DNA from: Deltaproteobacteria bacterium
GTDB taxonomy: Bacteria; Desulfobacterota; GWC2-55-46
Direction: 5' to 3'
Length of the DNA: 44,754 nt
Assembly (NCBI GenBank): GCA_016234405.1
Contig: JACRCC010000102.1
Coordinates: forward strand, 1 to 44,754
The position numbers were made by a program, and so were the translations under genes. Below the pieces are notes generated by a model. It worked only from the letters and a program-made list of their open reading frames with translations. It had not been told where the DNA came from and made no database searches. Shown here one piece after another: positions 693 to 36,808 of this stretch; the stretch's first letter is position 1, and each line of letters begins with the position of its first letter.

Positions 693-1456
693 CTTTTTTT
701 GGCAGCCGGTTTGAGTTCCACAGGGTGCGGCGGGGTAAGGGGCAGACCTTGGGCTATCGCCTCCGCGTTACCGGTGAAAAGAGGCTCGGCCCTTTCATCC
801 CCGATTATCTCAGCAGCCGCCCTTCTCGCCGCGGAGAGCACCGGCGGTCTAAACGTTACCGAGTGCCCGTCGCTTGCGACCACGTGCGCGAGATTCCTTT
901 CAAGCAGGTATGAGGAAAATGCCTTTATCATGGGGCCGAGTTCTCCGGTTATGCTCACGCCGGTAATCTGCACGAGCATTATGCCCTTCTCTACGGCGTC
1001 GTATAAAGCCTCGGGCCGGTTCAAAAACCAGACGTTGCGCTCAGGATGGGCCATCACGGGGCAATACCCCGCGCCTTTCAAAGACATCAAAAACAAATCC
1101 CAGTTCGGCGGCATGGTCTCGACGGGGAATTCCACGAGGACGTATCTGCCCTTTGCGTCAAGCGTGAGTACCTCGGAATTTTTAAGCCTTGCGACGAGGT
1201 CCGGCGCGGCAAAGACCTCACACCCTGCCTGTATCGAGAGCGGGATGCCGGACCCGCTCAAGAGGACGTTGAGTCTTTCGGTAAGTTCGATGATCCGGGC
1301 GGTTCCTGAATCGTAGACACAAGGGTTGCCGTGAGGGGTGGCGATGATCTTTTTAATGCCGTCGGAGGCGGCGATGCGGCACATCTCGATGGATTCTTCA
1401 AAATTAGACGGGCCGTCGTCAACGCCGGGCAGTATATGGCAATGAACGTCTATCAT
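662..1456 (-). CDS. CpsB/YwqE-type PHP-fold protein-tyrosine phosphatase
   Basis: This 264-residue protein starts with the PHP metal-binding signature HCHILPGVDDG (His5, His7, Asp13-Asp14). It continues with ATPHGNP around His42, AHPER around His137 and SDGH near residue 196, the metal-ligand blocks of the CpsB/CapC/YwqE family. These manganese-dependent phosphatases remove phosphate from the tyrosine tail of the partner BY-kinase and so control polymer export and chain length. Its ATG overlaps the kinase stop codon by 4 bases (ATGA at 1453-1456), so the two are translationally coupled, which fits the functional pairing. Length is normal for the family. No signal peptide or membrane segment is seen, as expected for a cytoplasmic enzyme. 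Confidence 0.94.
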   Translation of the reverse strand: MIDVHCHILPGVDDGPSNFEESIEMCRIAASDGIKKIIATPHGNPCVYDSGTARIIELTERLNVLLSGSGIPLSIQAGCEVFAAPDLVARLKNSEVLTLDAKGRYVLVEFPVETMPPNWDLFLMSLKGAGYCPVMAHPERNVWFLNRPEALYDAVEKGIMLVQITGVSITGELGPMIKAFSSYLLERNLAHVVASDGHSVTFRPPVLSAARRAAAEIIGDERAEPLFTGNAEAIAQGLPLTPPHPVELKPAAKKRWLQRILPQR

Positions 1457-3684
1457 GTTTTACGCTTCTTCCCTGAGGATTCCCCGTACCCGTACCCATA
1501 CCCATACCCGTAAGAATAGTAAGGATAGTACTGATAGCCGCTCCTTCTGGTAATCTTCACGTTGTTAAGACAAACCCCGAGTACCTTCGCGTTGACGTTC
1601 GCAATCATCTGTGAGGTCCTTTTGAGAAGGTCTCCGGTAATCATCCCTCCCCATGCGACGAGCACCACGCCGTCCACGTGTCTGCAGATGAGCAAAGGGT
1701 CGGAGACCGCCATCACCGGCGGCGAATCCAATATTATGCGGGTATATTTCTTTTTCGCCTCAGCGATGAATTCGGATATCCGTGTTGAGCTAAGAAGCTC
1801 GGAGGGGTTAGGCGCGTGCGCCCCGGAGGTCAATATGTCGAGCGAAGGTATGCCCGCCGCATTTTTTACGTGGGCCGACAATGCCCCTCCCTCCATTATA
1901 AGGTTCGTAAGGCCGGTGGAGTTGTCCAAATCGAATGTCTTGTGTATGGCGCTCTTTCTTAAATCAGCGTCTATCAAAAGCACCTTCTCTCCCATGCCGG
2001 CCATTGCCGCGGCCAGGTTCGAGGACGTGGTGGTCTTGCCCTCGTTAGGCGTCCCGCTGGTTACGAGTATCACCTGCGGGGATTTGTCTATTGAAGCAAA
2101 TATAACGCTCGTCATCAGGGTTCTGTAGGATTCGGCTATCGGGGTCTTTGCCTCAGGGGAGACGAATATCATGCCCTTTTCCTTCTCCTTTATGGCCGGT
2201 ATGACGCCGAGAAACGGCAGCCTGAGGAGTTTTTCAACCTCTTCAGGCGTCTTTACGGTATCATCCATGTAGTCCACGAAAAACGCAAGAAATATTCCGG
2301 TAAAGGCGCCGATGAGCGCGCCTAAAAGCGTATACAGCCCCTTTTGGGGGCTGACGGGCGCAACCGGCGTAACTGACCTATCAACGACCTGCACGTTGGA
2401 GATGGTTATGCCGCTGGAAAGAGATGCCTCCTGAAGCTTTTTAAGGAGGAGCTCGTAGAACCTCTTGTTGCTGTCCGCCTCCCCCGCCACCACGTTGAAC
2501 TCTATGGCCTTTCTGCCGAAATCCAACACATCTATCTTCTGCTCCTCTATCGTCTTCTTGATGGAATTCTCCCTTGAAAGCGCTATATCGAAATCGGTCT
2601 TTGCGGCGCTGAGCATCTTTCTCGCTTCATCGAGCAGATTTTTCCTCACCACCTCGAGTTCGGTTTTAGCCCTTACCATCTGCGGGTGCTTAGGGCCGTA
2701 CTTCTCCGAGAGTTCGGATATCTTTTTCCTGAGGTCCAGCTCCCCTATCCTCAGGTTCTGTATGACCATGTTGTTCATGATGTCGGGGACGGTCGAGAGG
2801 AGTTCGGGTTTGTCAATCACGCTTTTAATCTGGTTGTATTTGACCTCGGTCTCCTGACGCTTCGCGCCGGACTGCACGAGTTGGGTTACGAGTTCCTGGA
2901 GCCTCTGCACGAGCACATTATCCTTCGACTCGAAGGATACTATGCCCTTGCCCTCTCTGTAGAGCTGGAGGACCTTCTCGGATTCCTCGACCCTTGTCCT
3001 CAAGTCAACCATGCGCGCGGAGAGCCACTCGACTGCGTCCTTGTAGGGCTTGACGCGTATATCGAGGTTATGCTCGATATACGTGTCCGCTATGGCGTTG
3101 GCCATGGCCGCGGCCACCTTAGGGTCCCCGGACGCGAAGTTTATCCTCAATATGTTCGCCTTGCCTCCGGGCACCACGGTCATGTTGTCAAGGAGCATGT
3201 TTGTAATGGCCATGTCGAGTTCCACATACGGCTGGATATTCAGGAACTGCTCGGCGGAGGAGGGCTTCTTGTCCGGGAAAAACGACTTGATGGAGTCTCT
3301 TATAAACGCCTTGATACTCGGCAATAATGCCTCGGCGTTCGCGCGCTTTTGAGCCTGAAAATACAAACTCTTGTCGAGCTGAAGCTTCCTTACCACCCTG
3401 TCGGCGAAGGTCCTGCTTGTAAGTATCTGCTTTTGCGTGTTGAAGTAGTCGTTGAAGGACTTCATCTGCAGATACGGCGAGCCGCCTTCGGTGAAGGTCA
3501 TGGTGGGGTTATTTTCAAGGTCAACAAGCACCTGCGTCGAACCCTCGTAAACGGGCTTGGCCGTAAAGGAGTACGTTGCGGAGATGCCCGCGATGACGGC
3601 AAAAGTAAGAAAAGCGACGTTGCGCCGTTTTAAAAATATCTTCCAGTAATCTCTAAGGTGTATCTCTTCTTCGCTTACGTGCAT
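1453..3684 (-). CDS. Wzc/GumC-type polysaccharide co-polymerase with tyrosine autokinase domain
   Basis: This 743-residue protein has a Wzz domain: a membrane segment near residues 20-40, a long periplasmic coiled-coil region, and a second membrane segment after the proline-rich stretch VTPVAPVSPQKG. A cytoplasmic BY-kinase domain follows with Walker A GTPNEGKTT near residue 540, Walker A' LLIDADLRKS and Walker B IILDSPP. The C-terminal tail carries a tyrosine cluster that includes a (YG)5 run, the usual site of autophosphorylation. It should govern chain length and couple polymerisation to export through the Wza-like protein encoded just upstream. A GGAGG Shine-Dalgarno lies 10 bases before the ATG. 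The tail is encoded by a hexanucleotide tandem repeat, listed separately. Confidence 0.95.
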   Translation of the reverse strand: MHVSEEEIHLRDYWKIFLKRRNVAFLTFAVIAGISATYSFTAKPVYEGSTQVLVDLENNPTMTFTEGGSPYLQMKSFNDYFNTQKQILTSRTFADRVVRKLQLDKSLYFQAQKRANAEALLPSIKAFIRDSIKSFFPDKKPSSAEQFLNIQPYVELDMAITNMLLDNMTVVPGGKANILRINFASGDPKVAAAMANAIADTYIEHNLDIRVKPYKDAVEWLSARMVDLRTRVEESEKVLQLYREGKGIVSFESKDNVLVQRLQELVTQLVQSGAKRQETEVKYNQIKSVIDKPELLSTVPDIMNNMVIQNLRIGELDLRKKISELSEKYGPKHPQMVRAKTELEVVRKNLLDEARKMLSAAKTDFDIALSRENSIKKTIEEQKIDVLDFGRKAIEFNVVAGEADSNKRFYELLLKKLQEASLSSGITISNVQVVDRSVTPVAPVSPQKGLYTLLGALIGAFTGIFLAFFVDYMDDTVKTPEEVEKLLRLPFLGVIPAIKEKEKGMIFVSPEAKTPIAESYRTLMTSVIFASIDKSPQVILVTSGTPNEGKTTTSSNLAAAMAGMGEKVLLIDADLRKSAIHKTFDLDNSTGLTNLIMEGGALSAHVKNAAGIPSLDILTSGAHAPNPSELLSSTRISEFIAEAKKKYTRIILDSPPVMAVSDPLLICRHVDGVVLVAWGGMITGDLLKRTSQMIANVNAKVLGVCLNNVKITRRSGYQYYPYYSYGYGYGYGYGESSGKKRKT
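1483..1512. repeat. Hexanucleotide tandem repeat coding the (YG)5 kinase tail
   Basis: Five consecutive six-base units, CCCGTA or CCCATA on the plus strand, encode alternating Tyr-Gly at the C-terminus of the tyrosine autokinase. The units differ only at one synonymous position. Because the unit is 6 bases, gain or loss of copies would keep the reading frame and change only the number of tyrosines. Confidence 0.85.
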
Positions 3685-3710: not shown

Positions 3711-3767
3711 GTGAATCGTGAGACGAAACGGCCATAAGGTTTCACGATTCACGTTTCACGGCCGTTT
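3711..3767. repeat. Interleaved heptad-type inverted repeats between wza and wzc
   Basis: The gap holds two perfect inverted repeats in alternating order: GTGAATCGTGA (3711-3721) with TCACGATTCAC (3742-3752), and AAACGGCC (3726-3733) with GGCCGTTT (3760-3767). The arms interleave, so both stems could form together only as a pseudoknot; otherwise they exclude each other. The right part is three heptads of the form TTCACGN (3741-3761). The element touches the stop codon of the wza-like gene. A weaker relative (GTGAACC-type heptads) lies at about 40037-40066. It could act as a transcript hairpin tuning wzc relative to wza, or be a passive dispersed repeat. Confidence 0.7.
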
Positions 3768-4612
3768 TAAAATATGCTCTCCGGCACATAAACTATGTCG
3801 TCCGGCATCACAAGGTCTTCCATGTTTGCGTCGAGAGTCGTCTCTCCTAAGAGGGTTATACCCTCCTTGAGGGCTATACCCTCCTTGACGGTCTTTCTTA
3901 TTATCTTGGTCCTGCCCTTCGACGCCTTCTGCGTGAAACCTCCGGCGATGGTAACGGCCTTCAAGACGGTTAAACCCTTCGTTATCTTGTAAGCGCCTGG
4001 ACTTCTGACCTCGCCGTTCACGTAGACGAAAGCGGCCCTGGGCACGTAGATGCTGTCGCCGTCGCGCACCTGCACGTTCATTTTGACGTCCCCGTCTTCA
4101 AGGAGCCTTTTAAGCTCGACCGTAATGGTTAAATCCGCGTCTTTGCCGCCCCCGGGCTTAACAACCTTTCTCTGGATATAGAGGGTCTCTCCGGCCTTGT
4201 CGGTAATCCCGCCCGCTTTTGAGATGACCTCGAGAAGCGTTGAATTTTTCGTCAGCTCCACGAGGCCCGGTTTTATGAACTCCCCGAGCACCGTAACCTT
4301 CTTGCTCTTGTATTCCACGATGAAGACCGAGACCTGCGGGCTTATGATAAACCCGTCCGCATACCTCTGTCTTATCGCCTTCTCCGCGCCGGACAACGTC
4401 ATCCCGCCGAGACTCACCTCCCCGATGAGGGGCAGCGTTATCTTCCCGTCGCCGCTTATCCGCGCCTCCACGGTAAGATCAGGGTGTTCATATACCGCGA
4501 TCTTCAGGAGGTCCCCCTCTCCCACGAGGTAGTCTTCGGAGTCCGCGACGGACGACGCGGCCGGAAAGATACAGACAAGGAGAAATAATGTAATTATAGA
4601 CTTCTTTATCAT
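3767..4612 (-). CDS. Wza-type polysaccharide export protein with SLBB domains
   Basis: This 281-residue protein has an N-terminal signal peptide (hydrophobic residues 6-20, cleavage near ASSVADS). The Poly_export domain begins at YLVGEGDLLKIAVYEHPDLT (residues 28-47). Two SLBB-like segments follow, around VTVLGEFIKPGLVEL and VYVNGEVRSPGAYKI. Proteins of this family form the periplasmic/outer-membrane channel through which capsular or exopolysaccharide leaves the cell. No clear lipobox is visible; the one signal-peptide cysteine is inside the hydrophobic core, so it may not be a lipoprotein as E. coli Wza is. It starts two bases after the FecR-domain gene and precedes the autokinase, the standard wza-wzc order. 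It is shorter than E. coli Wza (about 380 residues), and no extra C-terminal helix is obvious. Confidence 0.93.
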   Translation of the reverse strand: MIKKSIITLFLLVCIFPAASSVADSEDYLVGEGDLLKIAVYEHPDLTVEARISGDGKITLPLIGEVSLGGMTLSGAEKAIRQRYADGFIISPQVSVFIVEYKSKKVTVLGEFIKPGLVELTKNSTLLEVISKAGGITDKAGETLYIQRKVVKPGGGKDADLTITVELKRLLEDGDVKMNVQVRDGDSIYVPRAAFVYVNGEVRSPGAYKITKGLTVLKAVTIAGGFTQKASKGRTKIIRKTVKEGIALKEGITLLGETTLDANMEDLVMPDDIVYVPESIF

Positions 4613-4614
4613 CG

Positions 4615-5298
4615 TTATCTTAGAGAATTCAACAGCGACAATTCTCTTATTAATTCCTTTCTGTCATCCGGGCCGAGAGAGGCGGGGCTTGACGGAGGGG
4701 TCTTTTTGGCCACGGTCGTCTTGCGGTTCATCCGCAAGGTCTCGCTGCCGACCGTAAAACTATTCGAGTTTCTCACGATTACGGCGCCTGCAAGCACGGT
4801 CACCTGAGTTTTCTCATCCGACGCATCAACCACGAAATCCGCCGCAGACGCCGAAAGGAGCGCCGTAGGACTCTCTACGGTAAACGCGGACCCCGGCGCC
4901 ATCCTCTCGAATTGGATATACCGCGCCCTGCCCTTCAACGCCTTGACATAAACCTTGAGTCTCTTGGCGTCAGGCTCGTATATGTATTGGATAATGCTTA
5001 GGGCGGCGTCCTTTCCGAGATTCACGAATGAACCATCGTCGAGGGAAATCCTTGCGTAGCCGTCTGCCTCCGCCGTAATCCTGTCTCCTATATAAACCTT
5101 AAATGCCGGAAGACCCCCCTCCACCTCTATCGGCTTCAACACCCCTATCCTTACGACTGTAACTTGTCCGCGCGCCGCCTCTATCCTCCCGACCATGCCG
5201 CGCTCTCCTGCCCGCGCTCCACTATGGGTTGCCATAAAAACTGCAAGAAAGATTATCGCCGCGGACGCTCGGTTGAAGGGAATTTTTGCTCCAATCAT
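4615..5298 (-). CDS. Secreted FecR-domain protein
   Basis: This 227-residue protein has a signal peptide (hydrophobic core about residues 13-22, cleavage near SGARAGE). A FecR-type beta-rich domain follows, with the recognisable order VGRIEAARGQVTV, GDRITAEADGYARISLDDGSFVNLG and the ALKGRARYI / FTVESPTALLSA block. In classical FecR this domain relays a TonB signal to a sigma factor. Here no sigma factor or membrane anchor is seen, and the domain is apparently fully periplasmic. It leads the transcription unit containing wza, wzc and cpsB, so a structural or sensing role in polymer export is likelier than iron signalling; that is inference. A promoter-like sequence lies 150-180 bases upstream (5451-5479). 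Confidence 0.88.
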   Translation of the reverse strand: MIGAKIPFNRASAAIIFLAVFMATHSGARAGERGMVGRIEAARGQVTVVRIGVLKPIEVEGGLPAFKVYIGDRITAEADGYARISLDDGSFVNLGKDAALSIIQYIYEPDAKRLKVYVKALKGRARYIQFERMAPGSAFTVESPTALLSASAADFVVDASDEKTQVTVLAGAVIVRNSNSFTVGSETLRMNRKTTVAKKTPPSSPASLGPDDRKELIRELSLLNSLR

Positions 5299-5364
5299 TG
5301 ATATGTATGCCGGGGAGATATCCTTAGGTATCGGCTAATGACAACCCGCTCTTGTATATTGGTT

Positions 5365-5425
5365 GTAGCTCAGGCCTTCAGGCCTGATTGTATCAGATTA
5401 TATCAGGGCTAAAGCCCTAAGCTAC
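5365..5425. repeat. Palindromic element with GTAGCT...AGCTAC ends
   Basis: A 61-base element bounded by GTAGCT (5365-5370) and AGCTAC (5420-5425). It holds the inner palindromes TCAGGCCTTCAGGCCTGA and AGGGCTAAAGCCCT. A related element with the same GTAGCTCAG start and a TCAGGCC-type inner palindrome occurs at 41085-41180. It lies in the presumed 5' leader of the FecR-wza-wzc transcript, where it would fold into hairpins. No coding content. Confidence 0.7.
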
Positions 5426-5450
5426 GGGACACGGTAAGTGGCCACTCATT

Positions 5451-5479
5451 ATTATAACAAAAAGACCTGCGGTTAGCCA
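5451..5479 (-). promoter_or_regulatory. Putative internal promoter for the FecR-wza-wzc unit
   Basis: On the minus strand a perfect TATAAT -10 (5451-5456) is preceded, 17 bases away, by a weak -35 TGGCTA (5474-5479). Transcription would start near 5444 and give a leader of about 145 nt before the FecR-domain gene. The site lies just downstream of a terminator-like hairpin, which supports a separate transcription unit. The weak -35 keeps confidence low. Confidence 0.35.
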
Positions 5480-5510
5480 GATTAAAGAGCAGGCTCAACT
5501 CGCAAGTCTT

Positions 5511-5541
5511 TTATTATAAAAGTCCGCCAAAAAGCAGACCT
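5511..5541 (-). terminator. Putative intrinsic terminator after the beta-barrel gene
   Basis: Read on the minus strand, GTCTGC and GCGGAC form a stem with one G-U pair around the loop TTTTTG, extended by two further weak pairs and followed by TTTTATAAT. It lies about 90 bases past the barrel stop codon and before the promoter-like site at 5451-5479. The U-tract is short (four). Confidence 0.5.
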
Positions 5542-5552
5542 ACTGAGCTTAC

Positions 5553-5619
5553 GTAGGATGGGTGAAGCGCACCCGTCAAAACATTTTGTGTTGGGTCAGC
5601 TGCGCTTGACCCAACCTAC
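5553..5619. repeat. Dispersed palindromic repeat, simple copy (GTAGG...CCTAC)
   Basis: A 67-base element begins GTAGGATGGGTGAAGC and ends GCTTGACCCAACCTAC, with complementary ends. It starts 11 bases past the stop codon of the barrel gene. The same element occurs at 36662-36808, but there it is interrupted by two other palindromes, so this copy shows the uninterrupted form. The 5299-5629 gap otherwise holds only the elements listed here and no gene. Confidence 0.8.
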
Positions 5620-5629
5620 GGGTCTGCCG

Positions 5630-6802
5630 CTACAGACCGACGTTCAATGTCACGGAATAAGAGTTCTCGTCGTAATCAAAGGCGTCTTGGGTGGAATTCC
5701 GGGTCCTGTGGCGGTAGTGGACTGCGGCCTCGATCATATCCGACGGCAGATACTTGAAACCTATACCGCCACTGACGTATACGTCTTCCCTTGCAAGATC
5801 CCTCGGCGCGTTCTTGAAAGTATATTTATCCCTGCCGTACGAACCGTTGAGGGTTACCCCCGCGCTCCTCGTGAAGAAGTGGCTAAACTCCGCGAAGCCG
5901 CCGGTGGTCTGAAAGAAGCTTGCGGTCTGAAGATTCGACTCGTTGGTCTTCCTCTCTCCGATGAGTTTTATGCTCGTATAATCGCTCAAGGCGTGGGTAA
6001 TGTCCAAAGAGGCCACCCACGTATCGTATGTCATTATAGTGGGGTCATTGAACTTCTTCCATTGATAGCCGCCTTTTATCGTGCCCTTGAGTTGTTCGGA
6101 GACTTCCCACGTTACGCCGCCGAGCGCGCGCTCGGCCGTGTTGTCGAGGTCCGGCGCATCCCTGTCGAAGTTGAAGTTGTTAACGTCGTACTCCAAGAAC
6201 GCCGAGGTCTTGGGCAGAAACCTGAAATAGACGAAACCTTGGGCAAGATGCTCGATTCTATTTCTGAATTTGGACGACAGGAACTCTTGCTTGACGGCCG
6301 TATAATCCACCTCTATCTTCGAGATGTCGGCAAGTTTGTACTCAATGGAGCCTCCGGCCGCGTTTCTGTCGAACTTTTCTATGAAGCCCGTGGACGAAGA
6401 ACCCCTCGGCTCGTGGCCTCTTGCGTAATCGTCCCTTAACTGTAAAGTGAAATCACCCATGATATTGAACTTCGCAAGCCCGCGCAGGGCCTGGTCCTGC
6501 GTGTTGTCCTCGGAATAGGTGTCGTGTCTTTCCAGCGCAGTATTGTATTCCGCCTCGAGGTAATGCATCCTCACGGGCCACTGGAGCTTCAGACCAGGCA
6601 CGGTCGTCGTAACCGTATCCTGCCTCTGCAGGGTGCCGGTGGCGTATACGTTGTCGGTGTATCTCTCTTTCATGACGAGATACGGATGCACCTCCAAACC
6701 CCCGAAGTTTATCCGCGCCCCGGGCGCATTCTCTGCCGTATAAGAGATTGCAGGGAACAGGAATACGAGAGAGAAAAACAGGGCTGATTTTATGATGCGC
6801 AC
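5630..6802 (-). CDS. Outer-membrane beta-barrel protein (BBP2-like) of the polysaccharide locus
   Basis: The protein (390 residues from the GTG at 6802-6800) has a signal peptide (SALFFSLVFLFPAISYTA, then ENAPG). After it, alternating polar and hydrophobic beta-strands rich in Tyr, Phe, Thr and Asp run to the end, finishing with the strand SYSVTLNVGL. The pattern and the opening INFGGLEVHPYLVMKERYTDN fit the putative-beta-barrel-porin-2 family found in exopolysaccharide loci. The GTG start is preferred over an ATG at 6922 because a strong promoter (6845-6873) lies between them, GGAG sits 9 bases before the GTG, and the signal peptide starts there. It appears monocistronic, with its own promoter and terminator. 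Likely an outer-membrane pore or anchor for the polymer; function is inferred. Confidence 0.88.
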   Translation of the reverse strand: MRIIKSALFFSLVFLFPAISYTAENAPGARINFGGLEVHPYLVMKERYTDNVYATGTLQRQDTVTTTVPGLKLQWPVRMHYLEAEYNTALERHDTYSEDNTQDQALRGLAKFNIMGDFTLQLRDDYARGHEPRGSSSTGFIEKFDRNAAGGSIEYKLADISKIEVDYTAVKQEFLSSKFRNRIEHLAQGFVYFRFLPKTSAFLEYDVNNFNFDRDAPDLDNTAERALGGVTWEVSEQLKGTIKGGYQWKKFNDPTIMTYDTWVASLDITHALSDYTSIKLIGERKTNESNLQTASFFQTTGGFAEFSHFFTRSAGVTLNGSYGRDKYTFKNAPRDLAREDVYVSGGIGFKYLPSDMIEAAVHYRHRTRNSTQDAFDYDENSYSVTLNVGL

Positions 6803-6844
6803 GCCGATTGTCTCCACTATACAAAAAATGATTGTTGACGTTAT

Positions 6845-6873
6845 TTTATAAGATATTCCCGCGCTCATGTCAA
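6845..6873 (-). promoter_or_regulatory. Sigma-70-like promoter for the beta-barrel gene
   Basis: Minus-strand TTGACA (6868-6873), a 17-base spacer and TATAAA (6845-6850) give a near-consensus promoter. Transcription would start near 6838, about 35 bases before the GTG start at 6802. It rules out the upstream in-frame ATG at 6922 as the main start. Confidence 0.65.
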
Positions 6874-6949
6874 ACGATTTTACCGTTTTTATCGTTTTCT
6901 TCCCTGAAAAGCAACGGGCCATGTCTGGAAAAAACCGGCGTTAAAACGG

Positions 6950-8044
6950 CTAGTTGAGCGATGCGAATAACGACAGATACCTCTCAGCCGCCTTATCCCA
7001 TGAATAATACACCCGTATCCTGTCTTTGGCCCCCTCTTCAAGGGAACGCCTTTTCTCTGCCGTCATTGACTCTATCTCTTTTACGGCGGCCGGGATGTCT
7101 TTTTCCGCGTCTTTAAAATAAAACGCCTGCGGCGCAACCTCGCGGTTGAATGCGTTGTCATGGGCAACGACGACGTTGCCGCAGGAAAGGGCCTCGAGGA
7201 GAGACGGGTTCGTGCCGCCGACGGTATGGCCGTGAAAATAAGCCGCGCAATGGAAGCGAAGGGCGGCGAGCTTCATGCGATCATAGACCGCCCCGATAAA
7301 ACGCACCCTCTCTTTGGCGTTACCGGCAAGCATCTTCACATACGGCGTATCCGCCTTATGGTTGCCTGCTATGACAAGCGGCCTCCTCGTGTCCGATGAC
7401 TTGAAACCATTTATAATCTCCGCAACGTTATTTTCAGGCTCAAGCCGGCATACGACTAAATAATATTCCCGGGGACGCAAACCCCATTCATCAAGCATGG
7501 CCGGATTCGGCGCGGCGCCGATTACCTCGGCGCCGTAAGGGATGACGGCGCACTTGGGTATTTTTTTATGACGGCGCAGGAGATGGTCCTTAATGCCTTC
7601 GGCGTCGGCGATAATCATGTTAGGCGTCTTCATGGCCAAAAACTCCATGACCTTGAAGTAGGTCTTTGCAGCGCCCCCCCACTTGCCCCGTGCCCATTCT
7701 ATGCCGTCCATGTTTATCAAGACTTTGGAGCCGAAAAGGCGCGGGATAAAGCAGAAAAACGACGCGCCGTAGCCGAGCATGTAGACGGCGTCATAGGAGC
7801 GCCTTGCGTGCCAGAGACACCGCAAGTCGTAAAATATCGTCGTCAAGGGGCCGAGGGCAGGGGAGGGCACGTATGCAAGTTTTACTCCCCTGTATGAGGC
7901 GGGAGACGATGCGCCCGTCCCTTCGCAATAGACCGTTACTTCAACGTCCAATCTGACGAGCCGCGCGGATAGCTCTTCCGCGAAGGTCTCAAACCCGCCG
8001 TACTTCGCGGGTATACCGCGGGCGCCGAGGATGGCGAGCTTCAT
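6950..8044 (-). CDS. DUF1972-type GT4 glycosyltransferase
   Basis: This 364-residue GT-B glycosyltransferase has the DUF1972 N-terminus MKLAILGARGIPAKYGGFET, a family often annotated as rhamnosyl- or other deoxysugar transferases. The acceptor-side domain covers about residues 1-175. The C-terminal nucleotide-sugar domain includes VVCRLEPENN, the region HTVGGTNPSLLEALSCGN and the EALS(C)GN donor-binding loop. It adds a sugar to the lipid-linked repeat unit on the cytoplasmic face. The start overlaps the GH20 stop by 4 bases (ATGA), so it ends the long operon that begins near 23349. The donor and acceptor cannot be read from sequence. Confidence 0.92.
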   Translation of the reverse strand: MKLAILGARGIPAKYGGFETFAEELSARLVRLDVEVTVYCEGTGASSPASYRGVKLAYVPSPALGPLTTIFYDLRCLWHARRSYDAVYMLGYGASFFCFIPRLFGSKVLINMDGIEWARGKWGGAAKTYFKVMEFLAMKTPNMIIADAEGIKDHLLRRHKKIPKCAVIPYGAEVIGAAPNPAMLDEWGLRPREYYLVVCRLEPENNVAEIINGFKSSDTRRPLVIAGNHKADTPYVKMLAGNAKERVRFIGAVYDRMKLAALRFHCAAYFHGHTVGGTNPSLLEALSCGNVVVAHDNAFNREVAPQAFYFKDAEKDIPAAVKEIESMTAEKRRSLEEGAKDRIRVYYSWDKAAERYLSLFASLN

Positions 8045-9417
8045 TTGCCGTTATCCGCTCCCGCGTTCCAGAAGGCGTCGGAAGAGGTCTTCATTATGCG
8101 GTCTACGGTATCCCATTCCTTTTTCTGGACATGGAACCAAGTGGTGGCTATCATCCCCTCTGCCCCCGGCATACCAGCCATATATCTGCTGAAGTTCCTC
8201 GTCGTAGGGACGGCCGTCCACGTGGCGCCGAGCACCCCGTGTCCGTCTTTTGCGAAGGCCGCGGCGCTGGGAAACTCCAAACCCGGTTCAGAATAGCGCC
8301 AATCGCAGATGACGACGTCTTTGGGTATTTTACCCCTAATCTGCGCATATCCTTCGACACCGTGCAGGTACCTGAAATTCATGCCCGGGAATTCATACGG
8401 AGCGGCGAGCATGTCGCCCCACATCCACGTCTCAACGCCTTTTTTCTTGAGATACCCGTGAAGCCTTTCTACGTCCTTCAAAAAAAGCTCCGGCGGCAGC
8501 ATCCGCTCTCCTTTTGGAGCCGCCGCCTCATCGTGGCCTATGTGGACGGCCCTCGGACGGATAAGCTCGATTATCTCGTCGAGCATGGCGGTTACGAACC
8601 GATAGGTCTCCTCCTTACGCGGGTCATAGGTGAACTTGTTATACATGAGCTCCGGTCGAGAATTCTTCAAAAACCAATACTGGTGGGTCAGCAGCTTCAC
8701 CTCCGGCACCACGTCAAGTCCGTTTTCCACGGCAAAGGATACGACCTCCATGAAATCCTCGGCGCTCCATGCGCCTTTGAGCGCGGTCTCGGCGTTTGCC
8801 TTGAAGCGCACCCCGTCGGAGACGTCCATTATCAAAATATTGAAGCGTCCGAGGCGCGCCTTGTTGATAAGAGTTTTTATGTCTTCTTTGTTAGTATGCC
8901 GCACGACAAGATGCAGGGCGCGCGCCTTGTGGTCGGGCCAGTCAATGATAGCGCCCTGCCGGAACGCTCCGCCCTCTTTCGTTATAAGCCCCTCCATGGT
9001 CGCAAGCCCGTATAAGACGCCTATTTCGTCGGCCCCGGCAACGGTTATGACGCTGCCCGCCACTTCGATTACATAACCGCCTCTGCGGGTCAAGGCTGCC
9101 CGGCGTTCTGATGAATCCGCCTCTGTCGGCGCCGCGACCTCCGCCTTGATGCCCGGGCTGCCTTTTTCCAAAGGCAGCGAAGCCATTGCCGCCTTGAAGG
9201 AACTGACCGGCGACTTATATGTCCGCTCAAACGCCGGAGGAATGTCCACTGCCGCATTCTTGCCGAGTCTGACGGCAGAACCGCTTAAATTCATTTTCTT
9301 AGGCTGCGGCGAAAAGTCCCCGGCGTTGACGCCGAAAGAAGACGCGCGCGTCAAAAAGATGATCGCCGCCGACAAAAAGACCGGACGAAGAACCCCGATA
9401 CCGCGGCATGCCTTCAT
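8041..9417 (-). CDS. Secreted GH20 family hydrolase (beta-hexosaminidase-like)
   Basis: This 458-residue protein has an N-terminal signal peptide (hydrophobic residues 10-22). A GH20b-like domain covers about residues 35-155, and the catalytic barrel starts at IIDWPDHKARALHLVVRH. The catalytic Asp-Glu pair is at residues 296-297 in HIGHDEA, where most GH20 enzymes have HIGGDE. GH20 enzymes cleave terminal beta-linked N-acetylhexosamine by substrate-assisted catalysis. Encoded between a glycosyltransferase and a sulfotransferase with 4-base overlaps at both ends, it is an integral part of a biosynthetic operon. That suggests trimming, release or turnover of a HexNAc-containing polymer in the periplasm. 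The glycine-to-histidine change in the motif may alter specificity. Confidence 0.86.
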   Translation of the reverse strand: MKACRGIGVLRPVFLSAAIIFLTRASSFGVNAGDFSPQPKKMNLSGSAVRLGKNAAVDIPPAFERTYKSPVSSFKAAMASLPLEKGSPGIKAEVAAPTEADSSERRAALTRRGGYVIEVAGSVITVAGADEIGVLYGLATMEGLITKEGGAFRQGAIIDWPDHKARALHLVVRHTNKEDIKTLINKARLGRFNILIMDVSDGVRFKANAETALKGAWSAEDFMEVVSFAVENGLDVVPEVKLLTHQYWFLKNSRPELMYNKFTYDPRKEETYRFVTAMLDEIIELIRPRAVHIGHDEAAAPKGERMLPPELFLKDVERLHGYLKKKGVETWMWGDMLAAPYEFPGMNFRYLHGVEGYAQIRGKIPKDVVICDWRYSEPGLEFPSAAAFAKDGHGVLGATWTAVPTTRNFSRYMAGMPGAEGMIATTWFHVQKKEWDTVDRIMKTSSDAFWNAGADNGK

Positions 9418-10406
9418 TCGTACCCCATCTCCTTCATGGTCTTTTCAAAAACGGAACGCACGAGCGGGTGGAGGTCAAAAGGTTTTTTCCGAGCGGCGGG
9501 GACAAGCGTTTTATACGCATAGCCCAAAAACTTCCCGTCGTTGCGTAGTCCGCAAAATTTCAGTATCCCGGCAAGCGACTTTTTGGGGTCTTCGACAAGC
9601 GATTCGTATCTTACAAGCATGACTGCCGGATCACTTTTGAGAAGCTTGATCCCCTCTCTCATCGTGAGCGCCCACTCCACGGCCGCCCTGTCCGCGTGGC
9701 CGGTCAGCGCCTTCAACTCCGCAACCGAACCGCAGAGGTCAGGGTCTTCGCAAGCGACCTGCTCGATTAACAGCCTCCACTTCCTGTCGTTGACCCCCCA
9801 CCAGTCGTGAACCTCTCCCTTGACGTTTTCACCAAGACGCTTTGACCACGTATCAATGGAGCGGCATGTGTCCCAACCGCTGCGCGCAAGGAACAGGAAC
9901 TTAGCGTCGGGGAATATCGCCTTGACGAACTGGACCCTGAAGATAAGCTCCGGGTATTTGTCCACGACCCGTTTTGAAAACGTCGCGGCAAGATACGCGC
10001 CGTATAGTCTGTGCGCGTTTTTTATGACATCCTTGCCTGCGTCATCCGCGCCAAGTCTGTACCGGGCGGGACCTTTAGTATAGCCGCCGATTATGTCCTC
10101 CTCATTATAAAGCGAATGCCACAGGGCCTTTGGTTCGTTGAGAAACGCAACGTCCCGGTGCATGGAGAGGACTACCCCAAGTATGGTCGTGCCGCTCCTT
10201 CCCGTGCCAAGTATGAATATAGGCATCTCGACCTTTTTAACGGCCGGGAGGCGCTTCTCAAGCGAATAGAGAGCGAAGACGAGCGGGTTTATCCACCTGC
10301 CTCTCGTCGTGAGAGGACGCCCCTCGAAGAGGGCATAGCTTACAAGGCGCGATACGGCCTTTGTAGGCCGCGTCCTGATATAAAGACCGTCGAGTTGGGC
10401 TATCAT
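9414..10406 (-). CDS. Sulfotransferase family protein 1
   Basis: This 330-residue protein carries the PAPS 5'-phosphosulfate loop GTGRSGTT at residues 67-74 and a 3'-phosphate-binding segment FLARSGWDTCRSIDTW, the two hallmark blocks of the sulfotransferase fold. An N-terminal extension of about 60 residues precedes the fold, with no clear membrane helix. It would transfer sulfate from PAPS to a sugar hydroxyl or amine of the repeat unit. It overlaps the GH20 gene by 4 bases and the upstream GT4 gene by 4 bases, so it is coupled to both. A second, distinct sulfotransferase lies at 15658-16647. No PAPS-synthesis gene lies in the window. Confidence 0.88.
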   Translation of the reverse strand: MIAQLDGLYIRTRPTKAVSRLVSYALFEGRPLTTRGRWINPLVFALYSLEKRLPAVKKVEMPIFILGTGRSGTTILGVVLSMHRDVAFLNEPKALWHSLYNEEDIIGGYTKGPARYRLGADDAGKDVIKNAHRLYGAYLAATFSKRVVDKYPELIFRVQFVKAIFPDAKFLFLARSGWDTCRSIDTWSKRLGENVKGEVHDWWGVNDRKWRLLIEQVACEDPDLCGSVAELKALTGHADRAAVEWALTMREGIKLLKSDPAVMLVRYESLVEDPKKSLAGILKFCGLRNDGKFLGYAYKTLVPAARKKPFDLHPLVRSVFEKTMKEMGYE

Positions 10407-11653
10407 CTAACCCTCCAGCCTCCCGGCCTTCCGGATGCTTCCCCGTAAACGTCCATCAGTTTTTCGTAGTAAATGTCCTTGTTGAACCGGGTTTCAACGC
10501 ACCTTCTCGCCTCGACTGACATGACTCCGTATCCCTCCGCTCCGATGCGTTCCGCCTTCCCGACCGCCTCTATCAACGAAGATACGTTCTTGCTTTCAAA
10601 GAGTAACCCGTTTACTCCGTCGCTTACGACCTCCGGGATGCCGCCTATCCTTGACGCGATGGCCGGCTTGCCCAGCGCGAACCCCTCTATAATGGAGAGG
10701 CCGAATGTCTCATAGCACTCGGAAGGCACAATCAAGAATCCCGCCCCTTTGATGGTTTCCGATAAGGCACGGCCCTTGAGATAACCGCACATCTCCACGT
10801 TGGCAAGGTTATTCGCCGCCGTATATTTGACAATCTCGTCCCTAAGAGGCCCGTCTCCGGCAATCTTGAGCCTCCTGCGCGGGAACTCTTTCCACGCCTT
10901 CAAAAGCGTCATTACTCCCTTTTCCCTCGAGAGCCTGCCTGCGTAAAGGTAATATTCACCGCGGACATGCGACGGCGCGCAGATCCCCGCGTCTATGAAA
11001 TTATATATCCGCGCGGTCTTGCCCTCAAGGGCGGGCCTGTATTTCAAATGTTTATCCTCGATAAATCCACTGACCATAATGAACCTGTCAACGTATTTCT
11101 CGTAAGGGAAGAAAAAATCCCTCACATAGCATTCAAGCGCCGAGAGGGCGCTGTACGCGAGCCCGCCCCTGTTGCACCTTTTCAACGCGCAGTGATAATA
11201 ACTCCCTCGGGCGCATCTTTCACATATCTCGCCTGAGGCGTCTATGAACAGATAAACCGGGCAGAGCATCCTAAACTCGTGCACGGTCATTACAACGGGT
11301 ATGCCGCGCCTTTTAAATACCGGCAGTATCGCGGACGTAAGCCTCCCGTAAAAGATATGCAGGTGCGCGACGTCCGGCCTGTGCCTCTCGATAAGGGCTT
11401 CGAGTTTTCTTTTGGCCTCCCGCGAGTAGACGAACCGAGCGGAGGAAATCGCCCTCTCTAATAAACCGCCGCCGAAAAAGTCCACCGGGGCCGCAAACCA
11501 TTCCCTGTACGGGGTGTCAACGATCTCCGCGTCCGCGACGCTGAACTCTATGACCTCGCGCCCCTTTTCACGCAGGAGCCTCGATGTCTCGAGATAGACC
11601 CTCTCGGAGCCGCCCTTCAGATAATGGTGGTTATTTACCTGCAGCACTCTCAT
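10403..11653 (-). CDS. GT4 family glycosyltransferase
   Basis: From the ATG at 11653 the product is 416 residues and opens MRVLQVNNHHYLKGGSERVY, the usual GT4 N-terminus with a glycine-rich loop. The C-terminal domain shows YYLYAGRLSREKGVMTLLKAW and the donor-site region ETFGLSIIEGFALGKPAIAS (E-x7-E). This start is chosen because ATG overlaps the upstream stop as ATGA at 11650-11653; a start further upstream at 11722 would run 70 bases into the polymerase gene. A cysteine cluster around ICERCARGSYYHCALKRC is seen near residue 140, a feature of some GT4 enzymes. It extends the lipid-linked repeat unit in the cytoplasm. Confidence 0.92.
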   Translation of the reverse strand: MRVLQVNNHHYLKGGSERVYLETSRLLREKGREVIEFSVADAEIVDTPYREWFAAPVDFFGGGLLERAISSARFVYSREAKRKLEALIERHRPDVAHLHIFYGRLTSAILPVFKRRGIPVVMTVHEFRMLCPVYLFIDASGEICERCARGSYYHCALKRCNRGGLAYSALSALECYVRDFFFPYEKYVDRFIMVSGFIEDKHLKYRPALEGKTARIYNFIDAGICAPSHVRGEYYLYAGRLSREKGVMTLLKAWKEFPRRRLKIAGDGPLRDEIVKYTAANNLANVEMCGYLKGRALSETIKGAGFLIVPSECYETFGLSIIEGFALGKPAIASRIGGIPEVVSDGVNGLLFESKNVSSLIEAVGKAERIGAEGYGVMSVEARRCVETRFNKDIYYEKLMDVYGEASGRPGGWRVR

Positions 11654-12972
11654 CGCTTTAAGACGGTCCCCTTTCCGTTTGGCTGCGAAAGCACCGAGAA
11701 CGTGAGCCCCATAAACGCCCAAAGATAAAATGAGAACTGCCTTACCTCAAAGGTCTGGTTGACAAGGTTAAGCGGGATCAAAAGTAACATGAGTATCCTG
11801 CACGCAAGGAGCGCGTCTTTCCGGAATCCGTCCACGTCCGCAAGCAGGTTGAACGCCATCAGCTTCTTGTATAAGTAGTACAACGTCAGGGCAAAAAATG
11901 ACAACCCGATTATCCCGTAGTAGAACAGGAGCGCGAGCCAATATACGTCTTCAAAGGCCTTAAGCATTTTTTCAGAAAACAAATACGGCATGCGGTAGTT
12001 CATGGCGAGATAATCCGTAAGAAACTGCTTATCGGGACTAAGCCCGTAGAGCAGATGCCGGTCCGCGCTGGTCAGATAATCGAGGAATATCCTTACCATG
12101 CCGAGCCTCTGTGACTCAAGATTGTCAAGGTACTGAGGAGAAAGGAAAAACAAAAAATCCCGGCTCGTATTGCCCTTGTCCGCGTATAAAAGAACGAACA
12201 GGAGAACGAGTATGCCTGGGGTCAGGTAAAAGACCACCCTTATGCCGCGCTTGAAAAAGATGTAAAGCCCGCCGGCTATAATGGCAGAAAGGAACGCGGC
12301 CCGCGACCCGGAAAAAAGTATCGCCGCGAAGAGATACGCAGCGCCTGCGCCGATGGCCGCCGTCCCAAGCCCGACCCTCGTTCCAAAGACAAAAAGAAAC
12401 ACCAACCCTATCAAAAGAAAACTCGCGTAGCTGATGGTGTAGGCCATTGTGCCGAAGACCTCGTCGCCGGTTACCGTGGTGAACGCAATGCCCATCTCTC
12501 CGGAGAGTTCCCTGGGCCTAAAAAACTCCAACACCGCGTCGCCGCCGATGTACTGTAGATTACCTATCGTGGCCTCCACGAAGGCCAGCGCAATCACGAC
12601 CTTAATAAACGCCAACGCCTGTTTTTCAGAGGGCTTAATCCAGCAGAGGATGTAGACCAAAAAGACGTACCTTAGCAGCGCCTTTAAGCTAAGGACGGCG
12701 GTTATGAGCGAGGAATTATTTATGACAACCGTCAGCAGGGCAAACCCCATGAACATGAGCAGAAAAAAGGAGGACTTCTTGCTCACCACGCTTAGCCTCG
12801 ACTCGAAGACGGACTTGAGAAAAATAACTAACGCAAGGGAGAGCACCAGCGCGTCAGGCGCCTGCCTCAAGATAAGATACGCCTTCTCAGGCATCGGAAA
12901 CCACTTGAGGATGAAATCCTCGAACGGGAGGTAAAACCCCAATAAAAAAACGAGATATACCGATCTATTCAT
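11650..12972 (-). CDS. Wzy-like O-antigen polymerase/ligase membrane protein
   Basis: This 440-residue protein is hydrophobic throughout, with about ten membrane segments. The short motif FSGSRAAFLSAIIAG (S-x-S-R-x-A) in the middle is typical of the O-antigen ligase/polymerase family. A large periplasmic loop follows (about residues 270-340). Its place inside the glycosyltransferase and flippase cluster makes it the likely Wzy polymerase, joining flipped repeat units. GGAGG lies 7 bases before the ATG. The related protein at 1-692 would then have another task, for example ligation; sequence alone cannot separate the two. Confidence 0.85.
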   Translation of the reverse strand: MNRSVYLVFLLGFYLPFEDFILKWFPMPEKAYLILRQAPDALVLSLALVIFLKSVFESRLSVVSKKSSFFLLMFMGFALLTVVINNSSLITAVLSLKALLRYVFLVYILCWIKPSEKQALAFIKVVIALAFVEATIGNLQYIGGDAVLEFFRPRELSGEMGIAFTTVTGDEVFGTMAYTISYASFLLIGLVFLFVFGTRVGLGTAAIGAGAAYLFAAILFSGSRAAFLSAIIAGGLYIFFKRGIRVVFYLTPGILVLLFVLLYADKGNTSRDFLFFLSPQYLDNLESQRLGMVRIFLDYLTSADRHLLYGLSPDKQFLTDYLAMNYRMPYLFSEKMLKAFEDVYWLALLFYYGIIGLSFFALTLYYLYKKLMAFNLLADVDGFRKDALLACRILMLLLIPLNLVNQTFEVRQFSFYLWAFMGLTFSVLSQPNGKGTVLKR

Positions 12973-14195: not shown

Positions 14196-15665
14196 CTAAA
14201 AACCCTTCCCCCTGAGCAATATTGAAACAAGCTTGTTTTTTTCGCCCTTATTGAGCGTCATCCATGAATACGCCAAAGCAAGACATATCCATGCCGCGGA
14301 TGCCCTCAAGTTCACCGCCCGGCTCGACCACGTGTGCCATGACGCCGCGGCAATTATAAGCAGCCCGCCGCACCAAACGGCGATAATCCGCGCCGACGGC
14401 ATGAACCCGTGGCGCTTCTTCGCATAATACAGGAGATAGGCGAGATTGCACGCATACAGAATGAAATAGACAAACCCGACGCCTTCGGTGGTTTTGAAAT
14501 AGACTATCGCCGCGGCGCCTAACCCAAGCAACGCCGCCCACCAAAGAACCTCTTTCCATAAGAGCACCTTCACGTCGGCATAGGCGAGTATCGTCATGCC
14601 AAGCACCCAGCTTGCAACCTTGAGGTAATCGCCGAGGAGCATCCATCGGACGATATCCAGAGACGGCATGAACTCCTTTGTATATAAAATATTGACCACA
14701 AGGGGTTTCAGCGCTATTACGCCCACGACCAACGGCACGGCAAACAGGAGCGAGAAGCGCAGCATATTGTTCATAAGCCTCAGACGTTCTTCCTTGTCTA
14801 CGATGCCGCTCAACGCCGGCAGATAATAAGTCCCGAAGGATTGCAGGATGAGCATCATGTAGACCATGCTCAGCGACCATGCGACATTGAAAATCCCGGC
14901 GCCCGCAAGGCCTTCGTGCCGTGTAATAAACACTCTTATGGCCAACAACGCGCCCGTTGACACGAGCGACGCCGCAAACACGGCGCCTGCGAAACGAAAA
15001 AAATCCCTGAGCGACGCCATGTCCAGACCAAACCCGCCGGACACTATGGGTTTAAGCCATCCTTCTCTGTATGCCATCCATAACCCCAATAACGATCCGG
15101 CCAAGGACGAAATGCCAAGCAGCCATATAAAGGCAACGGTATAACCCTGTTCCACGAACTTGCTTACGGGATATACCATTATCGCCGCCGCTGCGGCAAC
15201 GGCTATTTGTACAAGCGCAAGTCTGCCGATGGCCCTGAAACCGTTCAAAAGCCCGTTCACAAAGACGGATAACGCCGTCAGCGCGACCGGGACGGCAGTC
15301 CAACGCACAAGGCTCACGGTCTTCGCATCGCCAGCCTCGAAAACGACCGCGCTTATCCATGGGGCGAACAAAACGAATATCGCGGCGGCCGCAATCCCTC
15401 CGGCCGCAAAAAGCCAAAAGACCGTTGCGAGGTATCTGTCTTTTTCCAAGCCTTCCCTGACGGCAATGCCCTGGACAATCGGCGTCGGACCGCCGAGTGT
15501 GCCGCCGGCGGAAGCAGTCTGAATTATCTGGCGTAAAAGCGAATACAAACCGGCGCCGGAAGGCCCCAAGACCACCGCTATTATCTTGGAGCTGAACATG
15601 TTGAGCAGTATGCTTGCCGCGGAGCCTAAGCCGGTTTTGAAAAAAGCCTTTAGGATGTCACGCAT
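14196..15665 (-). CDS. Wzx-type lipid-linked oligosaccharide flippase
   Basis: This 489-residue protein has about 12-14 predicted membrane segments. Its N-terminus, KTGLGSAASILLNMFSSKII then AVVLGPSGAGLYSLLRQI, matches the polysaccharide transporter family (Wzx/RfbX), particularly the WzxE-like O-antigen translocase branch. It should flip the undecaprenyl-linked repeat unit across the inner membrane to the polymerase. It starts 8 bases inside the end of the sulfotransferase gene (15658-15665), so translation is coupled. Length is typical or slightly long for the family. Confidence 0.92.
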   Translation of the reverse strand: MRDILKAFFKTGLGSAASILLNMFSSKIIAVVLGPSGAGLYSLLRQIIQTASAGGTLGGPTPIVQGIAVREGLEKDRYLATVFWLFAAGGIAAAAIFVLFAPWISAVVFEAGDAKTVSLVRWTAVPVALTALSVFVNGLLNGFRAIGRLALVQIAVAAAAAIMVYPVSKFVEQGYTVAFIWLLGISSLAGSLLGLWMAYREGWLKPIVSGGFGLDMASLRDFFRFAGAVFAASLVSTGALLAIRVFITRHEGLAGAGIFNVAWSLSMVYMMLILQSFGTYYLPALSGIVDKEERLRLMNNMLRFSLLFAVPLVVGVIALKPLVVNILYTKEFMPSLDIVRWMLLGDYLKVASWVLGMTILAYADVKVLLWKEVLWWAALLGLGAAAIVYFKTTEGVGFVYFILYACNLAYLLYYAKKRHGFMPSARIIAVWCGGLLIIAAASWHTWSSRAVNLRASAAWICLALAYSWMTLNKGEKNKLVSILLRGKGF

Positions 15666-16647
15666 ATCTTCTGCTCAGCCGCCTTACCGTCAAGACCGTC
15701 CGCCTGGCCAGATTTTTAATCGGCGGGATACCCATTAAGGCCGATATGCCCCTGCCGGCCAATGAACCCCCTGCGGTTACCGCTTGCGAGAAAAATCTGA
15801 CCGGCCATGATATGTCTGCATCAGTAAACTCATAACCAATCCTATTTAGATCACCGTTGTCTTTAAATGCGCCGTTGATTCGAACTATCTGCAGACTATT
15901 CAATTTTCCCTTCCACTTGTCAACTTCGGACTTTTCTATATTCCTGTAATACGTCTTGCTGTCATAAAATACGCCGTCCAGTCCTGCCTCCCCGGCGTGT
16001 GGTTTTTCCCCGGGGCGCAGCATATCTCTGCTCCAGCCTATGCCAAGAAAGCCGCAGATCTTCTTGGTCCGGCCTTCCGGGTCGGCCACTAATTCTTCAT
16101 ATACGACCGGCAATATCCTGTCAGGGGCAAAACGAAGCGCGTCGAACCCGGCTTTAAAGCAATCCTGAACGTGGCAAATTGCGTCGGGTACGTGCCTGCT
16201 GATTGGACCGGCGGCTACGTTCAGCGCCGCCGCCTTTTTGCCGACCTCCATGAGGGAGGCTATTATCGCCCTCGGGTCCCTGATTACAAAAATAAATTTT
16301 GCCTTGGGGCAAATCTTCAACAATTGGTTGAACACCAGAACGTTATCAGGCGTCTTTTCGCTCAGGAAACTTTTTTTCCGCTCATCCGCGAAAGGGAGAA
16401 GGAGACCCTCAATCAACGAGCATACATGCGCGTCCACCTCGCCCTGCGAACGGAATATACCCGTCCTGCCGTTTGAAATGGACTTTTGAAGTCTGTCTCT
16501 CAGCCGCACTATCTCCGGGATATTGTCGAACTCGGGGCCGCCTGCGACATCCTCATGGGAATCGAGTATATTCTGGAGCAGGGTCGTCCCGGAGCGCGGC
16601 GCGCCGCCCACGAAAATCAGACGCCTGCCCTCATCGTAATTGCTCAT
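15658..16647 (-). CDS. Sulfotransferase family protein 2 (TPST-like)
   Basis: This 329-residue protein has the PAPS loop [18 protein letters not shown] at residues 14-31 and a 3'-phosphate-binding segment [18 protein letters not shown], the arrangement seen in bacterial relatives of tyrosylprotein sulfotransferases. EKTPDN near residue 95 is another conserved block. The C-terminal 55 residues are basic with hydrophobic stretches and may contact the membrane. It would sulfate the repeat unit at a different site from the enzyme at 9414-10406, because the two share little beyond the PAPS motifs. It overlaps the aminotransferase gene by 4 bases and the flippase gene by 8. Confidence 0.88.
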
Positions 16648-36661: not shown

Positions 36662-36808
36662 GTAGATGGGTGAAGCCCATTCGCGGAGTTTACACTGAGA
36701 GAAACGAACGTGCTCAGGGTAAACTCCGCGCACCCATCAAAACATTATCGTTCCCACGCTCCGGCGTGGGAACGCAGTGTTGGGTCTGCTTCGCTTGACC
36801 CAACCTAC
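36662..36808. repeat. Composite repeat: GTAG...CCTAC element interrupted by two palindromes
   Basis: The outer element (GTAGATGGGTGAAGC at the left, GCTTGACCCAACCTAC at the right) is the same as at 5553-5619. It is split here by two unrelated palindromes. One at 36682-36730 has 11-base arms CGCGGAGTTTA / TAAACTCCGCG. The other at 36745-36777 is copy 2 of the CGTTCCCACGC repeat. Between them remains the outer element's CGCACCC-TCAAAACATT portion. In the 36420-36968 gap, everything outside this element, the tRNA, the other repeats and the two promoter sites looks non-coding. Confidence 0.82.

Follow-up and report, generated by a model that had tools for sequence, protein, structure and literature searches.

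Introduction

Short OPX proteins have an empirical size limit of 280 aa (PMC9601211), and a dedicated barrel has been proposed as their working partner (PMC9601211, PMC9603273). In the composite OPX/β-barrel translocon, represented by EpsY/EpsX of Myxococcus xanthus and VpsN/VpsM of Vibrio cholerae, a short OPX protein without a membrane-spanning helix is encoded beside an 18-stranded, AlgE-closest barrel in a Wzx/Wzy-type cluster (PMC9601211, PMC9603273). AlgE is reported as the nearest structural homolog of EpsX of M. xanthus (PMC9601211). The main texts of PMC9601211 and PMC9603273 contain 0 occurrences of FecR. In the group 4 capsule system of Escherichia coli (GfcB/GfcC/GfcD/GfcE), the periplasmic GfcC and GfcB are reported to bind the polysaccharide barrel GfcD (PMC9603273). 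FecR-type proteins are known to bind outer-membrane receptors at the periplasmic signalling domain of the receptor (PMC9249621). The locus described here agrees with the composite translocon in its short OPX protein, its barrel and its cluster type, but here a FecR-domain gene lies between the barrel and OPX genes.

Layout of the polysaccharide export locus

The window, which is the whole stretch of DNA analysed here (44,754 nucleotides), is the whole of contig C91 in a genome of 2.04 Mb, 106 contigs and 97.76% completeness. At E<=1e-3 the whole genome has one OPX match, one BBP2_2 match and four FecR matches, the latter on contigs C53, C79, C68 and C91. On the minus strand the gene order is glycosyltransferase, barrel, FecR, OPX, PCP and CpsB-type phosphatase. 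The features are as follows.

22288–23349, minus strand: initiating transferase of the Glycos_transf_4 family (PF00953, 5.8e-41)
14196–15665, minus strand: Wzx-like flippase (PF13440, 2.3e-16; PF01943, 2.8e-13)
11650–12972, minus strand: Wzy-like ORF (PF04932, 21.4 bits, below the Pfam cut-off of 31.7)
6950–8044, minus strand: glycosyltransferase, ahead of the barrel in transcription order
5630–6802, minus strand: outer-membrane β-barrel of the BBP2_2 family, 390 aa (PF10082, 2.1e-33)
5299–5629, minus strand: barrel–FecR spacer; strong hairpins (fold z −7.2), palindromic element
4615–5298, minus strand: FecR-domain protein, 227 aa (PF04773, 6.6e-13)
3767–4612, minus strand: short OPX (Wza-like) protein, 281 aa (Poly_export and two SLBB stretches, no Wza_C)
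1453–3684, minus strand: PCP with Wzz and tyrosine autokinase regions (Wzc-like, from domain matches), 743 aa
662–1456, minus strand: CpsB/CapC-type phosphatase, 264 aa (PF19567, 3.6e-53)

The barrel, FecR, OPX, PCP and CpsB genes of the window were all confirmed as real, and the FecR ORF ends 2 bp ahead of the OPX gene. The BBP2_2 frame is open over 5630–6922 (minus strand), and the barrel probably starts at GTG 6802, behind GGAGA. Since an initiating-transferase-family gene, Wzx-like and Wzy-like genes and more glycosyltransferase genes lie upstream, together with two sulfotransferase genes, the locus is a Wzx/Wzy-type cluster. The sulfotransferase-family genes, at 9414–10406 and 15658–16647 (both minus strand), suggest that the polymer is sulfated. 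The cluster also holds a GH20-type hexosaminidase-like protein with a signal-like start (8041–9417, minus strand), and elsewhere in the window there is a large Type ISP-like restriction-modification gene (30145–33300, plus strand; PF18135).

The OPX protein, PCP and barrel also match the NCBIfam models EpsE, EpsF and EpsL of PEP-CTERM/XrtB export, but all of these matches fall below the curated cut-offs. A PEP-CTERM/exosortase system in this genome was rejected, since EpsL scores 53.6 bits against a cut-off of 275 and the exosortase family PF09721 has 0 matches in the genome.

Transcription signals around the barrel gene

The gap of 331 bp between the barrel and FecR genes folds strongly and carries an inverted repeat, 5552–5583/5589–5620. 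This palindromic intergenic element (5552–5620) has a second copy in the window at 36780–36803 and looks like a dispersed repeat. The earlier note had given the barrel gene its own promoter and terminator. The terminator scan lists none in 5290–5660, and the promoter scan finds only overlapping 9-of-12 promoter-like matches across the barrel start (6816–6787), so that neither signal is borne out by the scans. By eye, a hairpin followed by UUUUAUAAU is seen in the gap and could be a terminator. In relatives, where gene starts were set mechanically and gap sizes are approximate, the barrel–FecR gap is −11 to 81 bp in six of 11 loci and 223 to 913 bp in the other five. Therefore, separate transcription of the barrel is no constant feature.

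The Wza-like protein as a short OPX protein

The domain search gives no Wza_C match in the OPX protein at E<=1, and its alignment to Wza chains stops at residue 284 (2j58) to 324 (26gs) of 359. The membrane-spanning segment of Wza 2J58 consists of residues 326–359 (PMC9603273), so the alignment ends ahead of it. At 281 aa, the protein is one residue above the short-OPX limit of 280 aa, and its two SLBB stretches fit the D1D2D2 type described in PMC9601211. A Wza class 1 OPX protein was rejected, the C-terminal Wza_C helix that marks this class being absent from the matches. These features indicate a short OPX protein, which should be insufficient to cross the outer membrane alone. The general statement that Wza suffices for this step, from which the earlier note had started, is thus wrong for this protein: a Wza-like sufficient pore is ruled out by the missing Wza_C match together with the alignment that ends before the Wza membrane segment. 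Because the OPX protein has no membrane-spanning part of its own, another pore is needed.

The outer-membrane barrel

A model of the barrel built from 13 sequences (pLDDT 85.8) has 18 long strands. When it was compared with 996 re-aligned solved chains, AlgE took the first nine rows (Z 19.0–19.7); the preference for AlgE is slight, since LamB ties at Z 19.0 and others lie within about Z 1. The barrel gene is two genes upstream of the OPX gene, within the five-gene distance used for composite translocons. By analogy with these systems, the barrel is expected to be the main exit pore for the polymer. It has no signalling domain like those of the receptors to which FecR is known to bind.

If the termini are taken to be periplasmic, which fixes the side of each loop, 13 of 13 barrel rows from loci with the barrel, FecR and OPX genes (hereafter cassettes) have an extracellular loop HE(P/A/G)R, as does the row of genome G047, versus 0 of 12 other rows. 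A periplasmic KTS turn is present in all 13 cassette barrels and also in the FecR-less G114 and G090. Relatedness alone could explain both the loop and the turn. A second barrel of the genome, on contig C79, matches only the barrel model built here (1e-8).

The FecR-domain protein

The FecR model, built from 15 sequences (pLDDT 89.9), consists of a signal-like helix at residues 10–25 and a mostly β body. It matches the FecR subdomain of PupR (6ovk) with Z 17.4 over 141 residues, and 4m0h and 4m0n with Z 15.8 and 15.7. The PupR stretch that is matched covers residues 111–251 and the second periplasmic subdomain of PupR covers residues 250–324 (PMC9249621), so the FecR protein of the window lacks this second subdomain. 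It also lacks the cytoplasmic and inner-membrane parts of PupR. Ahead of the hydrophobic helix there are only about 10 residues and no cytoplasmic anti-sigma region, and the domain search returns no anti-sigma family match for the protein. The N-terminus, judged by eye, and the model helix together predict a signal-like start and a secreted protein. It comprises little more than the FecR domain and has no surface-type repeats.

The earlier description of a FecR-domain protein without a sigma factor agrees with the PF04773 match in the 227-aa ORF and with the absence of any Sigma70_r2 match on C91. The note had named a cognate sigma factor elsewhere, paired with this FecR protein, as a finding that would refute its proposal. 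The six Sigma70_r2 matches of the genome are on other contigs (C48, C2, C5, C58, C61 and C86), and the one opened, a small sigma gene of 176 aa on C61, is followed by its own anti-sigma-like ORF, judged by eye. The FecR subdomain fold is thus common to this protein and to the FecR/PupR cell-surface-signalling regulators, but the anti-sigma region, the inner-membrane helix after it, the second periplasmic subdomain, a sigma partner on the contig and the signalling domain of the receptor barrel are all missing from the window.

Distribution of the FecR–OPX–barrel cassette

An OPX alignment search of genome contigs gave 18 loci. OPX identity is at least 54% in 13 of these, and 12 of the 13 have FecR as the gene directly ahead of OPX. 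Six of the 13 match contigs of the query rows in length; with these set aside, the pairing holds in 7 of 7. The 13th locus (L094) has FecR and the barrel together on the opposite strand, further on. In L102 the barrel and FecR are followed by 730 bp and then a shortened OPX ORF, and L100, L101 and L103 have no FecR at the locus; L099 stands outside this count. Counting the window, 13 genomes share this arrangement of FecR immediately ahead of OPX, to which L102 and L094 are added. The barrel is upstream of FecR in all 12 loci where this can be viewed (the window, L087, L089–L093, L095–L098 and L102; L086 and L088 end at contig ends and were left out). A second FecR gene lies upstream of the barrel in two cassettes (L068/L093, 1430–2290; L095, 6676–7968), and L071 (G073, 3832–8513) is another variant gene set, with FecR, barrel, a CsgG-like plus LytR_C protein and OPX.

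Seven loci carry a Nitrospirota label (L086, L089, L090, L092, L095, L098 and L102), L087 is labelled Geobacteraceae and the remaining cassette loci are labelled Deltaproteobacteria. L087 groups in the OPX tree with a Thermodesulfovibrio bin and may be mislabelled or a transfer. Of the 13 genomes that have FecR immediately ahead of OPX, at least seven are labelled Nitrospirota or Geobacteraceae, so the gene set does extend beyond close relatives, a point on which the earlier proposal could have failed. The spread is patchy: in the window's own order, FecR is beside OPX in at least six of 48 genomes, with G003 as a split case. When the OPX model was run against 395 genomes of the phylum, 64 scored at E<=1e-50; G000 and G003 reach about 1e-132 or better, and a gap follows down to 1e-95. 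In an OPX tree of 31 rows, from which L102 was left out, the 14 cassette rows form one group with support 98/97.

The control set consisted of the 20 next-nearest OPX loci, picked by OPX similarity alone. In 20 of 20 the barrel gene immediately precedes OPX, and FecR lies between them in 0 of 20; one control locus (L216) has FecR upstream of the barrel and another (L211) has a weak FecR match (0.0024) about 5.5 kb away. The next-nearest G090 and G108, outside the 20, also have no FecR between barrel and OPX, and FecR is found in 0 of 33 loci of a further set, in which most of L160–L179 were picked for having no FecR listed nearby, so that the 20 similarity-picked loci are the unbiased control. 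Since barrel and OPX are adjacent throughout the control set and FecR is never between them, barrel–OPX looks like the base plan, with FecR inserted in one branch as what looks like a clade-specific addition. The translocon runs without FecR in both sets, and therefore FecR is no core part of it. Among 12 cassettes the FecR, barrel, OPX and PCP distances correlate (r 0.61–0.75, Mantel p <=0.0015), which is the pattern that a single unit, inherited or transferred, should give.

Linkage of FecR and barrel genes

Neighbours within 4 kb on the same strand were counted in 117 related genomes from positions typed by hand (147 FecR rows; 69 barrel places, rows of one ORF being merged; 116 OPX rows), and the chance expectation was computed with one mean genome size, 2.6 Mb. 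About 37 listed OPX rows, mostly open frames longer than 400 aa, were left out, which makes the OPX counts lower bounds; checked by eye, none of them lies within 4 kb of a listed FecR. FecR is near OPX in at least 8 of 147 typed FecR places (about 0.21 expected). Of the 69 typed barrel places, 27 are near FecR and at least 35 near OPX (about 0.16 expected in each case), and at least six are near both. The count of adjacent FecR, barrel and Wza genes that had been proposed as a check thus places these neighbours far above chance among the 117 genomes.

In the rearranged clusters of G003 and G047, FecR is kept with the barrel and away from OPX. In G003 it stays beside the barrel and not beside PCP or CpsB; in G047, a genome 87% complete, the order is FecR–barrel, with no OPX among the matches listed. 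FecR is also found just upstream of the barrel in L071, L093, L095 and L216. Outside OPX clusters, 21 FecR–barrel pairs were counted and 20 fetched. In 18 of the 20, the barrel ORF (475–692 aa) comes first and the FecR protein (399 to 1425 aa) second; contig ends cut some of them. N-terminal TPRs are present in both of the two barrels scanned from such pairs, and Ig-like or propeller matches in two of the four FecR proteins scanned. These longer-barrel pairs may be another system, and they loosely support the FecR–barrel link; they could be an undescribed export pair. The recurrent pairs of a longer barrel gene and an often long FecR-domain protein are L002, on contig C79 of the window's own genome, and L140–L157. 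One scanned longer barrel resembles surface lipoprotein assembly modifiers, but weakly and with a score below the cut-off. On contig C53 of the same genome (L001), a FecR-domain gene is directly followed by an ORF that is CHASE2-like by eye.

Possible roles of the FecR protein

That the window encodes a composite OPX/β-barrel translocon is well supported by analogy with the described systems. The OPX–barrel part is of an already known kind, and FecR is the new element. The evidence leans towards FecR as a secreted protein of the FecR fold that was gained in this clade as a periplasmic adaptor of the barrel. The polymer would pass PCP, then OPX, then the barrel; FecR would most likely dock at the periplasmic mouth of the barrel, and the docked FecR would couple, seal or gate the OPX–barrel joint. 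The group 4 capsule, with helper proteins on a barrel beside OPX, offers a works-like analogy only, since its helpers GfcB and GfcC are not FecR and GfcE is a class 1 OPX protein with its own helix (PMC9603273). As the barrel has no signalling domain, any contact between FecR and the barrel must be of another kind than that of the signalling regulators. Several observations count against the adaptor: the correlated distances also fit joint inheritance without contact, the general translocon works without FecR, FecR is patchy in the window's order, the barrel lacks a signalling domain and its preference for AlgE is slight. The earlier idea that FecR and barrel make an alternative or additional exit or anchoring device comes close to the finding as far as an exit device is concerned, but not in "alternative or additional", the barrel being the expected main pore.

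FecR might instead be a surface or polymer-holding protein, passed out through or seated in the barrel, that tethers the polymer. The longer-barrel pairs, with FecR second in order, several FecR proteins long and Ig-like or propeller matches in half of those scanned, would suit such a role, and the FecR model weakly matches a 'cell surface anchoring domain' (5ix9), a lead only, as its Z of 6.8 is under the tool's own caution line of 8. It is nevertheless unlikely, because the cassette FecR has little beyond its FecR domain and no surface-type repeats. Alternatively, FecR might stand outside the conduit and sense or regulate export, for example by signalling to the PCP kinase or the phosphatase that polymer is passing. 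FecR-fold proteins are known in signalling (PMC9249621), and in Burkholderia FecR-LysM genes share a biofilm-regulating operon with the gene of a CHASE2 kinase (PMC5192318). This role is improbable here, since no sensor kinase or regulator was found among the neighbours scanned and since in G003 FecR remains beside the barrel, apart from PCP and CpsB.

The barrel itself could be a Wzi-like anchor instead of the exit pore, as Wzi is likewise an 18-stranded barrel of capsule clusters (PMC9601211). The domain search gives no Wzi family match for it at E<=1, the OPX protein needs another pore and the barrel adjoins OPX in all 20 control loci, all of which make an anchor very unlikely; that no Wzi chain is among the 50 matches listed for the barrel model excludes nothing. 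It is scarcely credible that FecR is an anti-sigma regulator of the usual type, or a decayed one, whose sigma partner lies elsewhere. The family name and fold agree with this, but an anti-sigma factor was rejected as largely refuted by the signal-like N-terminus, the missing anti-sigma region and the absence of a sigma gene on the contig, and the small sigma gene on C61 appears to have its own partner.

Implications for polysaccharide export

The literature searched on FecR domains, OPX, exopolysaccharide and PEP-CTERM yielded no description of FecR joined to polysaccharide export or to an OPX–barrel translocon, and the FecR addition is a consistent clade-specific variant beyond what that literature describes. 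More tentatively than for the adaptor, the FecR domain might serve outer-membrane barrels in general as a docking module in the periplasm. It would then have three settings: iron signalling, where the barrels are TonB-dependent receptors; the pairs of longer barrels and long, surface-type FecR proteins; and the present cassette, where it would be an inserted third subunit that links a short OPX protein with its barrel. The polysaccharide translocon of the last setting would have three parts and would have spread between phyla as one cassette. A clade with a small soluble protein encoded between OPX and barrel offers a candidate for the joint at which a short OPX protein hands the polymer to a separate barrel, and a compact three-gene set. 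If true, the adaptor reading would give a function to a secreted FecR protein without a sigma factor.
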